The notes below the pieces were generated by a model, which worked only from the letters and a program-made list of their open reading frames with translations, made no database searches and was not told the origin of the DNA. The position numbers and the translations under genes are program-made. Of a DNA stretch of 64,000 nt, positions 9,887 to 28,979 are shown one piece after another (the stretch's first letter is position 1; each line of letters starts with the position of its first letter). The stretch comes from Kineosporia succinea (GTDB lineage Bacteria > Actinomycetota > Actinomycetes > Actinomycetales > Kineosporiaceae): positions 806,001 to 870,000 of the forward strand of contig NZ_JAUSQZ010000001.1 of assembly GCF_030811555.1 (NCBI RefSeq). The letters are read 5' to 3'.

Positions 9887-11542
9887 ATGATGGCAGGCCT
9901 GCGACGCACAGCGGCGACCTGGTGGCGGGCGGTTCGGGGGGCGAGCCGCGGCCGGGTCGTCTACGAGTGCGCCCTGATGCTGTTCGCCGCGCTGACGAAT
10001 CTCAGCGGCGTCGTGTTCGTCAACTACACCGAGGTCGGCTCCACCGAGCTCCTGCTCTCCCTGGGCACGGCCGCCGCCGCGCTCGTGCTGGTGCCGCTGC
10101 GCCTGGTCCGGCCGGTCACCGCTCTGGTGCTGGGCTCGGTGGTCAGCATCCCGGCCGGGGGCACGTCGCTGCTGATCTCCATCCTCAGCGCCAGCACCGG
10201 CTACCGCGCCAAGAAGCCACTGGCCATCGTCTTCGGCTACTCGGTGGCGCTGGCCTGCGCGATCTGCGGGGTGATGGCGCAGACCGACCCGGCCGATTTC
10301 GGGCCGATGGGCGCGCCCCTGTTCGGCCTGACGCTGTTCGCCTTCATGTGCGTGCTGCCCGGGGCGATCGCCGCGATGATCGCGCAGCGCCGCCTGCTCG
10401 TCATGACCATGCACCAGCGCAACATCGAGCTGCACGCCGAGCGCCTCCTGGTGGCCGGCCAGGCCCAGGCCCGCGAGCGCAACCGGATCGCCGCCGAGCT
10501 GCACGACTCGCTGGGCCACCGGCTCACGCTGATCTCGATGTACGCGGGCGGTCTTTCACAGAACCCGACACAGAACCCGACACAGAACCCCGCGGCCGCC
10601 GGGGCACGCACCCCGACCACCACGTCCACCGTCGGCATCCACGAAGAAGACCCGCGCACGCGCGCCGTGGGCCTGCTGCGCGACACCTCGTCGCAGGCCA
10701 TGACCGAGCTGCGGCAGATCCTGAAGGTGCTGCACCAGGACGAGCCCGCGGCCGGTGGTGGCCGCAAGCTCGACGAGGTCGAGCAGACCGTGGAGGCCGC
10801 CCGGCAGACCGGCACCCTGATCGAGCTGGTGCGGGTGGGGCAGCCGCGCCCGCTCTCGCTGCTGGCCGAGCACGCGGGCTACCGCGTCGTTCAGGAAGGC
10901 ATCACCAACGCGCTGAAACACGCCGGTGGGGCGCCGGTGCGGGTCGAGGTCCGCTACGACGACGAGGCCCTGTTCATCGAGGTCCGTAACCGCGCCGGGC
11001 GTCCGCACCCGGGCCCGAGCAGCGGGCAGGGGCTGCACGGGCTCACCGAACGCGTGCGGCTGGCGGGTGGCGTGCTGTCGCAGGGGCCGACGGACGACGG
11101 GTTCCGTCTGGGGGCGATGTTGCCGTACGAGGCGGACGTCCCCGCTCCGGGCCCGGCCCCGGCCAGCGACTTCCCGCCCGACCTGATCAGGCGCAGCAGC
11201 CGCCGCCAGCGCATCGGGTTCACCGCGGTGGTGCTGGCCCTGCTGGTCACGCTGGGCTCGTGCGTGGGCTGGGCCGCCACGCTGCCGGGCACGATCCCGA
11301 TCGAGGCGTCGGTGTACCAGGCCGTTCGGGTCGGCGACGACCGCGACCGGCTGCGGCACCTGCTGCCCGAGGAGGAGGTGGCCTCGACCCGTACCGACGA
11401 GCAGGGCCGGACCTGCGAGACCTTCCTCGGCGACGTCACCGAGCAACCCGACTTCGAAGAGTACGAAATCACTTACGAGTTCTGCTATTCCGGCGACAAG
11501 CTGGTCTCCAAGCAGAAGGTACGCACGGAGGGAACCCCATGA
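9887..11542 (+). CDS. NarL-type sensor histidine kinase with extracytoplasmic C-terminal domain
   Basis: About 551 aa. Residues 1-165 contain four to five membrane segments. A HisKA_3 dimerisation domain follows (ERNRIAAELHDSLGHRLTL, phospho-acceptor His in ELHDSLGH), then a HATPase domain (N box NALKHAGG; G box GQGLHGLTERVRLAGG). Unusually, after the kinase there is another membrane helix (IGFTAVVLALLVTLGSCVGW) and about 85 residues predicted outside, with RTCETFLGD and YEFCYSGD carrying two Cys. A 12-bp triplicate repeat encodes NPTQNPTQNP after the H box. The stop overlaps the response regulator start (ATGA). Start is uncertain: ATG 9887 or 9890 without a clear ribosome site. A paralogue lies at 27381-28979. 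Confidence 0.88.
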   Translation: MMAGLRRTAATWWRAVRGASRGRVVYECALMLFAALTNLSGVVFVNYTEVGSTELLLSLGTAAAALVLVPLRLVRPVTALVLGSVVSIPAGGTSLLISILSASTGYRAKKPLAIVFGYSVALACAICGVMAQTDPADFGPMGAPLFGLTLFAFMCVLPGAIAAMIAQRRLLVMTMHQRNIELHAERLLVAGQAQARERNRIAAELHDSLGHRLTLISMYAGGLSQNPTQNPTQNPAAAGARTPTTTSTVGIHEEDPRTRAVGLLRDTSSQAMTELRQILKVLHQDEPAAGGGRKLDEVEQTVEAARQTGTLIELVRVGQPRPLSLLAEHAGYRVVQEGITNALKHAGGAPVRVEVRYDDEALFIEVRNRAGRPHPGPSSGQGLHGLTERVRLAGGVLSQGPTDDGFRLGAMLPYEADVPAPGPAPASDFPPDLIRRSSRRQRIGFTAVVLALLVTLGSCVGWAATLPGTIPIEASVYQAVRVGDDRDRLRHLLPEEEVASTRTDEQGRTCETFLGDVTEQPDFEEYEITYEFCYSGDKLVSKQKVRTEGTP

Positions 11543-12243
11543 CGGACGCGCCGGTCCGGGTCTTGATCGCGGACGACGACGCCTTGGTGCGCGGAGGCAT
11601 TCGCTTCGTGCTCTCGATGGTCGAAGGGATCGACGTGCGCTGGGAGGCCGGCGACGGGGCCGAGGCCGTCGTCCTGGCTCTGGAGCACCGCCCCGACGTC
11701 GTGCTCATGGACGTGCAGATGCCCGGCACCGACGGGCTCACCGCGCTGCTGAAACTGCGGGCGGCCTGGCCGGAGGCGGTGGTCATCATCCTGACCACGT
11801 TCGGCGAGAGTGACTACATCACGCGGGCTCTGGCCGGCGGGGCGGCCGGGTTCCTGCTGAAAGACGCGGCGGCCGACGACCTGGCCCGGGCGATCCGGGC
11901 GGCCGCGAACGGTGACGCGTTCCTGTCCCCCGCGGTCACCCGTCAGCTGCTCGACGGCATGTCGGCGCCCTCCGGTGCCCCGGTGGTACCGGAGGCCTCG
12001 CGGGCGCCGGGCATCGAGGTGCCCGAGTTCGCCGCGAAGGGCCTGGCCGAGCTGAGTGCCCGCGAGCGCGAGGTGCTGGTGCTGGTGGCGCAGGGCCTGT
12101 CGAACGCCGCGATCAGCACGCAGCTGTGGATCAGCGAGGCGACGGTGAAGACGCACGTGAGCCGGGTGCTGACGAAGCTGGGCTGCGAGAACCGGGTGCA
12201 GGCGGCGCTGATCGCGCACCGCCTGGGGCTCATGCAGTCCTGA
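11539..12243 (+). CDS. NarL/FixJ family response regulator
   Basis: Two-domain transcription factor, 234 aa. The receiver domain has the acidic pocket (LIADDDALVRGG), phospho-acceptor Asp in PDVVLMDVQMPG, the Thr switch in ILTTFGE and Lys in FLLKDA. The C-terminal LuxR helix-turn-helix reads LSAREREVLVLVAQGLSNAA and ATVKTHVSRVLTKLG. It overlaps the kinase stop by 4 nt, so it is the cognate partner. Its 3' end overlaps the convergent Clp-N gene by 14 nt. Target genes are not visible. Confidence 0.95.
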   Translation: MTDAPVRVLIADDDALVRGGIRFVLSMVEGIDVRWEAGDGAEAVVLALEHRPDVVLMDVQMPGTDGLTALLKLRAAWPEAVVIILTTFGESDYITRALAGGAAGFLLKDAAADDLARAIRAAANGDAFLSPAVTRQLLDGMSAPSGAPVVPEASRAPGIEVPEFAAKGLAELSAREREVLVLVAQGLSNAAISTQLWISEATVKTHVSRVLTKLGCENRVQAALIAHRLGLMQS

Positions 12244-26673: not shown

Positions 26674-27384
26674 TCACCGTTTCGCCCGTAGCCGTGTGCG
26701 CTCGGCCGGGGTGTGCTTCTCGATCGCGTAACTCAGCATCGTGCGGGGCATCCGCGCGGCGTACCGCTCCAGGAACCCGTCGAGCACGGCCCGGTCGCGC
26801 TGCCCGACCTCGCGCAGCATCCAGCCCGCCGCCTTGTGGATCAGGTCGTGCCGGTCGTCGAGCACCGCCGCGCAAAGGCGCAGCGTGTCGTCGTGCTCAC
26901 CGGCGCGCAGCAGGGCGAACGTGGAGATCAGGGCGATGCGCCGGTCCCAGAGGTTCTCCGACACCACGAGCTCGTCGAGCACGGTTCGACGCGAGGGGTG
27001 GGCCAGCAGCCAGGCCCCGATCGTGTCCCGCACCACCGCGTCGACCAGGTTCCAGTTGTTCAGCCGGTGCCGGTTGTCGAGCGTGGCGCGCATCGCGGCC
27101 TCGGGCTCGGTGCGGTAGAGCTCGACCAGCAGCAGCCCACCCAGCAGCCGCACCTCGTTGTACCGGTGCTGCAGCAGCTCGACCGCATCGGAAACCGTTG
27201 CGGCCGAACGGAAACGCCGCACCAGCGCACGGATCGCCGGCACGCTCACCCCGGCGAACTCGTCCCCTTCCCCGTAACCACCCGGGAAGGCCTGGAAGTA
27301 ACGCGCCTTGACCGACGCGTCCTCAGGCGATCCGGCCGCCTCGACGGCCGCAACCATCTCGGTCACGCTCGGCGAAGGCCTCAC
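26674..27384 (-). CDS. AlkD-like DNA alkylation repair protein
   Basis: 236 aa all-helical HEAT-like repeat protein of the AlkD DNA glycosylase family, which removes alkylated bases. Key stretches: KARYFQAFPGGYGEGDEFAGVSVPAIR, NNWNLVDAVVRDTIG (in AlkD the Trp/Asp here stabilise the lesion site; NWD is NWN here), WDRRIALISTFALL, LIHKAAGWMLREVG. GTG start at 27384 overlaps the stop of the upstream histidine kinase gene by 4 nt (GTGA), so the two are translationally coupled. The Asn in place of the usual NNWD Asp is worth noting, though the later D in LVD is kept. Confidence 0.85.
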   Translation of the reverse strand: MRPSPSVTEMVAAVEAAGSPEDASVKARYFQAFPGGYGEGDEFAGVSVPAIRALVRRFRSAATVSDAVELLQHRYNEVRLLGGLLLVELYRTEPEAAMRATLDNRHRLNNWNLVDAVVRDTIGAWLLAHPSRRTVLDELVVSENLWDRRIALISTFALLRAGEHDDTLRLCAAVLDDRHDLIHKAAGWMLREVGQRDRAVLDGFLERYAARMPRTMLSYAIEKHTPAERTRLRAKR

Positions 27385-28979
27385 TCCGACGACGCCCCCC
27401 TCGGCTGCAGCACCCGTTTACCGCTCACCGCACCGTCTTTGAAACAGACCTCGTAGCGCACCTCTCCCCCGTTCTCCGGCTGCACGTACAGGTCGGCCAG
27501 GTACGTCTCACAGAACGACCCGTCGTCGGCGGTACGGGACTCCAGCGAGGTGACCGGCAGCAGCTCCCGCGCGCGGACCTCGTCGTCACCGGGCCGGAAC
27601 GAGTTGAACACGTTCTGCGGCACCGGATCCGGCGACCCCGCGGTGAGGTACGCCCCCACCCCCGTCACCAGCGCCATCGACACCGCTCCGATCACCGCGA
27701 TCAGCCCCAGCCGCTGACGACGCGAGCTGCTCCGGAGCTCCCGGGGAAAACCGCCCGCGGGAGAACGGGTCTCGGGCACCTCCGACTCGTACGGCAGCAT
27801 CGCCCCGAGCCGGAAGCCACCGTCGTCGAGAACCCCGTGCGACAGCACCCCGCCCGCCAGCCGCACCCGTTCCCGCAGCCCGTGCAGCCCCTTGCCGGTG
27901 CTCGGCCCGTTCGAGAAGCGCCCGGGCCGGTTGCGCACCTCCACGAACAACGCGTCGTCCTCGTACCGGATCTCGACCCGCACCGGCGCCCCGCCCGCGT
28001 ACTTCAGCGCGTTCGTGAGCCCCTCCTGCACCACCCGGAACCCGGCGTGCTCGGCCAGCAACCCCAGGGGCCGCACGTCTCCGAGGCGTTCCAGCTCGAT
28101 CAGCGTGCCCGTGCCCCGGGCCGCGGCGACCGTCTCGTCCACCTCGCTCAGGGTCCGGCTCGACGACTGCCCGTCCTGGTGCAGGATCCGCAGGATCTGC
28201 CGCAGCTCCCCCATGGCCTGCGCGGAGGTGTCGCGCAGCAGGGTGAGTGCCTCGGTGACCTGTGGGGTGGTGGTGACGGTGGACGTCGTGGTCGCCCCCG
28301 CGGGCACCATGGACTGCGCCAGTCCGCCCGTGTAGAGCGACATCAGCGTGAGCCGATGGCCCAGCGAGTCGTGCAGCTCGGCGGCGATGCGGATGCGCTC
28401 ACGGGTCTGGGCCTGGTCGGCGACGAGCTCGCGCTCACGGTGCAGCTCCTCGTTGCGCCGGCTCATCGTCATCACGAGCAGACGTCTCTGGGCCACCATC
28501 GCGGCGACGGCGGCGGGCGCGACCGCGGTCAGGCAGAACAGCATCGCGCCGATCAGGATCCCGAACAGCAGGCCCTGATCCGTGCGCGCGATTGCCCCGA
28601 TCGTCATCGTGACCAGCACGAACCCGAATCCGCCGAGCACGGCCCGGGTGCGCCGGGCCCGGTAGCCCGCGCCGGCCGCGAGCGCGATGAGGGTGAAGCC
28701 GGTGCCGAAGTGGATCATCGACAGGGCCGCGCCGAGCCCGAGGGCCGTCATCGGGCGCAGCCATCGCAGCGGCACGATCACCAGGGTGACGAGTGCACCG
28801 GCCAGGGCGTACACCGCGAGGGTGGCCAGGCTGCCGTCCTCGAGCGCGTAGGCGGCGCAGAGCACGAGCTCGGTGAAGGCACACAAGAGGGTCAGGGTTG
28901 TTTCGGAGGCGACACGAATCCACCCCACCTTGCGCACGACCCGGGTGGTGGTGGCTACTTTTTCCCTGAGAAGTCCCAT
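27381..28979 (-). CDS. Second NarL-type histidine kinase, paralogue with C-terminal extracytoplasmic domain
   Basis: 532 aa, same architecture as the kinase at 9887: five membrane segments, HisKA_3 (ERIRIAAELHDSLGHRLTL), HATPase (NALKYAGG; GKGLHGLRERVRLAGG), then a membrane helix (LGLIAVIGAVSMALVTGVGA) and an 80-residue tail predicted outside. The tail shares RPGDDEVRARELLP, SRT, CET.L.D and YEVC with the first kinase. The flexible post-H-box loop is Thr-rich instead of NPTQ repeats. No response regulator is adjacent (orphan); it may signal to the regulator at 11539. ATG 28979 is 34 bp from the divergent hydrolase gene. Overlaps the AlkD-like gene. Confidence 0.88.
   Translation of the reverse strand: MGLLREKVATTTRVVRKVGWIRVASETTLTLLCAFTELVLCAAYALEDGSLATLAVYALAGALVTLVIVPLRWLRPMTALGLGAALSMIHFGTGFTLIALAAGAGYRARRTRAVLGGFGFVLVTMTIGAIARTDQGLLFGILIGAMLFCLTAVAPAAVAAMVAQRRLLVMTMSRRNEELHRERELVADQAQTRERIRIAAELHDSLGHRLTLMSLYTGGLAQSMVPAGATTTSTVTTTPQVTEALTLLRDTSAQAMGELRQILRILHQDGQSSSRTLSEVDETVAAARGTGTLIELERLGDVRPLGLLAEHAGFRVVQEGLTNALKYAGGAPVRVEIRYEDDALFVEVRNRPGRFSNGPSTGKGLHGLRERVRLAGGVLSHGVLDDGGFRLGAMLPYESEVPETRSPAGGFPRELRSSSRRQRLGLIAVIGAVSMALVTGVGAYLTAGSPDPVPQNVFNSFRPGDDEVRARELLPVTSLESRTADDGSFCETYLADLYVQPENGGEVRYEVCFKDGAVSGKRVLQPRGASSE

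Follow-up and report, generated by a model that had tools for sequence, protein, structure and literature searches.

The window that we analyzed, a 64-kb stretch of Kineosporia succinea DNA, carries at 9887..11542 on the forward strand a gene for a HisKA_3 histidine kinase of 551 amino acids (HK1), which is translated without a break. Hydropathy segments outline a multi-helix membrane region at its N terminus (approximately residues 1 to 165; 9887..10381, forward strand), and Pfam and structure matches place the phosphoacceptor and ATPase domains at approximately residues 165 to 415 (10379..11131, forward strand). The HisKA_3 match (PF07730) has an E value of 1.7e-12 in HK1 and is above the Pfam cutoff in both HK1 and its paralogue HK2; the HATPase_c matches are below the cutoff in both (E = 0.0021 in HK1, at the expected position, and E = 0.00033 in HK2), and residues 255 to 413 of HK1 match DesK structures with an E value of 6.2e-9. 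The probable phosphoacceptor is His206, in the motif ELHDSLGH, with its codon at 10502..10504 (forward strand). For the N terminus and the kinase both to be cytoplasmic, the N-terminal helices, whose count is approximate, would have to be even in number. The HisKA_3 match of HK1 ends at position 37 of 68, and an insertion in the phosphoacceptor region holds a short tandem repeat, QNPTQNPTQNP (10559-10591), that is absent from HK2 and from a further paralogue, HK3.

Beyond the ATPase domain, the polypeptide continues through an Arg-rich stretch into a hydrophobic helix at residues 440 to 468 (11204..11290; best 17-residue hydropathy window, 2.25) and from there into a tail with two cysteines at residues 468 to 551 (11288..11539), which a profile and a predicted model mark as a putative extracytoplasmic domain with a BLIP/BamE-like fold; these features and the codons for Cys510 (11414..11416) and Cys533 (11483..11485) are all on the forward strand. 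Pfam, hydropathy, and the translation thus confirm what a first-pass annotation of this DNA had described, namely, a membrane helix and a two-Cys domain after the ATPase domain. The gene adjoins that of a NarL/LuxR-type response regulator with Response_reg and GerE domains in Pfam (11539..12243, forward strand), and the TGA stop of the former overlaps the ATG start of the latter by four bases (ATGA).

A paralogous kinase of 532 amino acids, HK2, is encoded on the reverse strand at 27381..28979, and Pfam and its alignment to HK1 (52% identity, 286/548 alignment columns) bear out the earlier observation that the two share a layout, together with the motifs GDD....R.LLP, CET.L.D, and YE.C. Its tail domain (27384..27635, reverse strand), delimited from the sequence and a predicted model, contains Cys490 and Cys512, and in both kinases the part beyond the helix comes to ~75 residues. 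A third full-length paralogue, HK3, lies elsewhere in the genome (G000:C1:7843051-7844598). The source genome has 41 HisKA_3 matches and four matches to the tail profile, the latter being HK1, HK2, HK3, and one stand-alone small protein. This third copy, the presence of tails in all six sampled genomes of the genus, and matches in other genera indicate that the arrangement is more than chance.

No regulator was found beside HK2, as a search of the 64-kb window with the HK1 regulator matched only 11539-12243 itself. In all six genomes of the genus, an HK1-type gene has its own regulator, as does the tailed kinase L177; for 12 of the 19 tailed kinases of the genus, searching the surrounding stretches with the HK1 regulator found none. 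Orphan kinases are common enough that HK2 stays eligible as a HisKA_3 (NarL-partner) kinase. In each of these six genomes, ~3 to 16 kb separates the tail match of the HK1-type gene from that of an orphan, so a shared regulator is possible. This proximity suggests that HK2 may use the regulator of HK1, in the way that one regulator serves two kinases in the AbrC system outlined in PMC3098853. At 27381-27384, the stop codon of HK2 runs into the earliest GTG that could start a DNA alkylation repair gene (26674-27384), an arrangement that suggests that the two genes may be translationally coupled.

The first-pass annotation had staked its proposal of a kinase subfamily on the tail being conserved beyond the source genome, and the tail does recur beyond it. 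A three-tail profile that took in the helix was run against 58 relatives and found in six, which are all six members of the window's genus (the source genome included); it was absent from all 52 genomes outside the genus (0/7 other genomes of the family and 0/45 other genomes of the order). A 15-row profile restricted to the domain was run against 394 genomes of the class, with up to 14 candidates scored per genome, so that the counts are lower bounds; it found the domain in at least 50 genomes and at least 17 of 138 genera, one of which belongs to the same order. For a large genus, the phylum, and a candidate AbsA1 discussed below, we used a 36-row profile that has the HK1 tail as its first row. 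With up to 18 candidates scored per genome, this profile was found in at least 176 of the 295 genomes of the genus to which G111 belongs (inferred to be Streptomyces from a match to S. coelicolor primer sequence and an AbsA1-like locus), at up to five places in each, and over the phylum in at least 6 of 296 genomes and at least 4 of 199 genera, our own included. The distribution of the tail is patchy and centered on some families, and we count this patchiness against the input-domain explanation developed below. Tailed relatives annotated as histidine kinases are plasmid-borne in Streptomyces europaeiscabiei, Streptomyces sp. NBC_00984, Streptomyces sp. NBC_01276, and Glutamicibacter nicotianae, and plasmids without annotation carry two further ones, in Streptomyces sp. 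BHT-5-2 and Streptomyces sp. NBC_01435.

We fetched the surroundings of 80 tail matches, comprising 79 of the 82 places that the class scan found outside the source genome (three were left out, two for lying at contig ends and one for its stops) and one place in the window's genus. Seventy-six of the 80 are C termini of kinases, their open frames also encoding the kinase core; the remaining four open frames lack a kinase match. A response regulator adjoins 74 of these 76 tailed kinases, versus neither HK2 nor HK3, which have none nearby. ABC ATPases beside the 76 kinases were counted with a strict motif (0/76) and a relaxed one (8/76, with no control set), and this candidate association was dropped. 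No Pfam or NCBIfam family, those of BLIP and BamE included, was hit by any of the 36 tails with an E value below 0.05 (seven families were hit by one member each, the best at E = 0.057). A search with three tails gave one hit, HCV_NS4a (E = 0.03), which is below its cutoff and was taken as chance. The tail domain therefore seems to be unnamed, and its breadth and fold are apparently undescribed in Pfam, NCBIfam, and the accessible literature that was searched.

The topology of the tail was assessed over 95 tailed kinases (18 of the window's genus, the 76 fetched kinases, and the AbsA1 candidate). All 95 have a hydrophobic window (Kyte-Doolittle value of at least 1.6) between kinase and tail, and the same criterion finds no such window within the last 200 kinase residues of any of them. 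Lysine and arginine are in excess on the kinase side of the helix in 93 of the 95, equal in one, and fewer in one. The tailed kinases extend 123 to 207 residues past the kinase profile in every case, versus 0 to 80 residues in 12 untailed HisKA_3 kinases (10 of the source genome and 2 of Streptomyces), which bears out the statement that canonical kinases end at the ATPase domain. A scan of named genomes with peptide patterns taken from HK1, which are poorly conserved, returned two Streptomyces kinases, both without a tail. Since the kinase must be cytoplasmic and a single helix separates it from the tail, the tails of HK1 and HK2 are predicted to be extracytoplasmic. The universal helix, the positive-inside bias, and the enhanced green fluorescent protein (eGFP) fusion data that reviews report for AbsA1 all support this placement, which had been proposed from HK1 and HK2.

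The two cysteines were counted in 101 tails, 21 of the window's genus and the 80 fetched. Both are present in all 101 (exactly two cysteines in 100 tails and four in one), though the profile was built with these cysteines, which biases its matches toward having them, and the count leaves out two tails, L037 and L040, that lack the first Cys. These two, both from genome G002, are apparently decayed and have no in-frame kinase. The cysteines of a pair are 14 to 23 residues apart, and the second is followed directly by F, Y, or W; in 69 of the 95 kinases, the last 200 kinase residues have no Cys at all. In the predicted models of the HK1 and HK2 tails, the two cysteines fall in the second and third strands, and if these strands pair as a hairpin, the cysteines would be in register within one residue (109 versus 108 to 110 and 106 versus 107). 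The earlier suggestion that the domain is disulfide bonded thus gains a conserved pair predicted to lie opposite each other in both models, and one disulfide presumably closes the domain.

The fold itself was approached through AlphaFold2 models, each built from two window sequences only. The HK1 tail model (pLDDT 83.3, pTM 0.75) and the HK2 tail model (pLDDT 86.8, pTM 0.76) both consist of two helices followed by four strands. In Foldseek, the first 17 rows for the HK1 tail are BamE, BLIP, BLIP-I, the BLIP-like protein 3d4e, and the immunity protein BtiO, at E values of 0.03 to 0.5, and the first 15 rows for the HK2 tail are BLIP, BamE, and 3d4e, at E values of 0.02 to 0.16; no row for either tail has an E value below 0.001. 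VIA-align gives the HK1 tail Z scores of 8.5 with BamE, 8.0 with BLIP, 7.9 with BtiO, and 7.7 with 3d4e, followed by 4ifa (6.3), 4h0a (6.2), 9vnj (6.0), and other names at 4.9 or below, and Z scores of this size, none exceeding 8.5, may reflect only a common arrangement. When the tail profile was run against PDB sequences, the best match was 3d4e (E = 0.28), followed by another at E = 1.7, neither being significant. Because the two models agree and a separate, though nonsignificant, sequence lead points to 3d4e, we accept a BLIP/BamE-like fold of the tail as likely. The first-pass annotation had guessed at a BLIP/SmpA-like fold; BLIP, BamE, and their relatives do top both fold searches, but every E value exceeds 0.001.

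BLIP and BamE are both protein-binding domains. BLIP is a soluble inhibitor composed of two units of this kind, and BamE (SmpA/OmlA) is an outer-membrane lipoprotein of Gram-negative bacteria. The predicted two-helix, four-strand tail resembles BLIP, BLIP-I, and BLP (3e2k_C, Z of 8.0 over 71 residues at 2.9 Å), but it is a single unit attached to a kinase by a membrane helix, and identity in the fold alignments is only 8 to 17%. Its likeness to BamE (5d0o_E, Z of 8.5 over 77 residues, root mean square deviation of 4.2, for the HK1 tail) is likewise qualified, as the tail is actinomycete, anchored in the membrane by a helix, and equipped with a Cys pair, and none of the 36 tails matches BamE in Pfam. 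On the kinase side, the core of HK1 is related to those of DesK/YocF, NarX/NarQ, LiaS, and UhpB, all of which end at the ATPase domain.

The closest known system is AbsA1 (SCO3225), which regulates antibiotic production globally in Streptomyces coelicolor and whose signal is given as unidentified in a review. Two reviews describe AbsA1 as having five membrane helices, one of them C-terminal, with a C-terminal domain that is extracellular according to eGFP fusions and a cytoplasmic part with dual kinase and phosphatase activity. As these reviews describe it, AbsA1 shares with HK1 and HK2 the HisKA_3 core, the N-terminal helices, the single C-terminal helix, and the C-terminal domain, extracellular in AbsA1 and predicted to be so in HK1 and HK2, which gives the layout a precedent. 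We searched for AbsA1 by using S. coelicolor DNA printed in PMC9628970 as a pattern over 392 genomes, and 12 of these matched with three mismatches or fewer, three of them exactly. One exact match, G667, encodes a tailed kinase of 571 residues followed by a regulator of 222 residues, and a peptide synthetase gene and an HPPD-like dioxygenase gene are within 12 kb of the kinase gene. This gene context fits what we take to be the AbsA1/AbsA2 setting in the CDA cluster, and H202, L253, I360, and R365 of the kinase are at what are presumably the positions of the published AbsA1 residues. From its length, gene context, and these residues, we take the G667 kinase to be a candidate for AbsA1 itself or a direct orthologue. 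The 36-row profile matches this candidate at residues 492 to 570 with 76.8 bits.

The layout is thus already known from AbsA1, which apparently has the tail domain too, as the candidate for it does; what seem to be new are the breadth of the domain, its Cys pattern, and its fold. The candidate differs from HK1 and HK2 in having a peptide synthetase gene alongside and a longer, fast-changing linker, while HK1 differs from AbsA1 by the insertion in its phosphoacceptor region and HK2 and HK3 by the lack of an adjoining regulator.

The earlier proposal of a kinase subfamily is supported by a tree in which the 12 untailed kinase domains were set beside 62 tailed ones (a thinned set drawn from 88 of the 95): all tailed domains fall on one side of a single branch with support of 98/81, present in 98% of bootstrap trees and matched by none of 500 shuffles, although the untailed rows are few and mostly from the source genome, some long branches meet, and closer untailed relatives may exist. 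Within the tailed branch, the AbsA1 candidate belongs to a different sub-branch from that of HK1 and HK2. The tail is under purifying selection that is less strict than that on the kinase core. Its dN/dS is 0.18 to 0.51 in six pairs from the genus, 0.36 to 0.45 in three more distant AbsA1 pairs, and 1.81, 1.81, and undefined in the three closest AbsA1 pairs, where very few changes underlie it; values for the kinase core are 0.07 to 0.28 over all twelve pairs and 0.10 to 0.28 in the genus pairs. The N-terminal bundle has values of 0.32 to 0.64 in the genus pairs, and the AbsA1 linker has values of 0.73 to 0.81 in the distant pairs. Over its 24 codons, the HK1 helix gives 0.89 and 0.97 between the source genome and two others and 0.23 in a third pair.

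We favor, with a probability of about 0.6, the reading that HK1 and HK2 are AbsA1-type kinases in which the tail is the main input domain, binding a partner outside the cell and thereby shifting the balance between kinase and phosphatase activities. Such a kinase would be built from an N-terminal bundle, a cytoplasmic HisKA_3/ATPase core, a linker, an outward-leading helix, and a disulfide-closed BLIP/BamE-like domain. The partner bound by the tail, whether in the envelope or extracellular, would most likely be a protein or peptide, given what BLIP and BamE bind, and the tail, being tethered by one helix, would alter the docking of the ATPase domain on the phosphoacceptor helices. Altered docking would, in turn, shift the kinase/phosphatase balance of HK1 toward the regulator encoded at 11539-12243. 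That the tail senses a signal and tunes the kinase we infer from the material above, as we do the fold, the disulfide, the binding of a ligand, the class of that ligand, and the path of transmission. The faster evolution of the tail relative to the core and the weak constraint on the HK1 helix in two pairs are counted against the input-domain reading, as are the absence of a regulator beside 12 of the 19 tailed kinases of the genus, the fold matches that fall short of significance, and the two-sequence basis of each model. A more ambitious form of it, which we put forward tentatively and consider doubtful, is that the tail is an unnamed, widespread receptor domain of actinomycete kinases whose binding of extracellular proteins or peptides resembles that of BLIP and whose signal passes along the helix straight into the ATPase domain, with free copies acting as competing or partner subunits.

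An unlikely alternative is that the helix and tail serve as a structural anchor, holding the ATPase domain near the membrane or stabilizing the dimer, and that the N-terminal helices sense the state of the membrane or its lipids. HK1 and the AbsA1 candidate do have a hydrophobic N-terminal bundle, at least as variable as the tail (0.32 to 0.64), as a sensing part may be, and no ligand of the tail is known; yet a folded domain with both cysteines kept in all 101 tails would hardly be needed for anchoring, and the domain also occurs in stand-alone, single-helix copies, so it is useful apart from anchoring a kinase.

These stand-alone copies bring in a second explanation, which we consider to be improbable to the same degree, in which an accessory membrane or secreted protein, maybe a stand-alone copy itself, docks on the tail and is the real sensor. 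The copy in the source genome (L210:5035-5394; G000:C1:7460034-7460393) has 119 residues, with one helix and a tail-type domain, and its gene is 70 bases behind that of a HAMP/HisKA kinase, itself behind an OmpR-type regulator gene. Single-helix copies occur in other genomes as well. The protein-binding habits of BLIP and BamE, the closest folds, and the existence of such copies favor docking, but no recurring accessory gene was noticed near the kinases (the systematic count covered ABC ATPases only, 8/76), and the stand-alone gene of the source genome follows an OmpR-type system, with different neighbors at five other loci. The candidate role of stand-alone copies as parts of two-component systems holds in the source genome, was not seen at those five loci, and was dropped as a general rule.

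It is rather improbable that the cysteines form a redox switch, with the oxidative state outside the cell making or breaking their disulfide and so setting kinase activity. The pair is kept throughout the 101 tails, 14 to 23 residues apart, and is opposite by strand registry in both models, but a structural disulfide would give an identical pattern, and three stand-alone copies that have no kinase keep the pair too. Finally, two decayed copies and the three closest AbsA1 pairs, in which the tail, on very few changes, shows no sign of constraint (1.81, 1.81, and undefined), lend something to the idea of a vestigial or neutral extension, but the dN/dS of 0.18 to 0.51 in the nine more distant pairs, the retention of Cys and Gly, and the spread over at least 17 of 138 sampled genera make it very improbable indeed.

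The input-domain reading that we prefer bears on a regulator of antibiotic production as well as on K. succinea. If the outside domain of AbsA1 is a BLIP/BamE-like unit shared with many other kinases, the search for its ligand would have a defined 80-residue target, with a conserved Cys pair to mutate, and the profile of the tail would offer a way to spot this input domain in other actinomycetes. Were the receptor reading true, the signal would take a route that differs from the usual one, from the N terminus to the phosphoacceptor helices. The tailed kinases also raise the mechanistic question of how a histidine kinase may be controlled by input at its ATPase-domain end.
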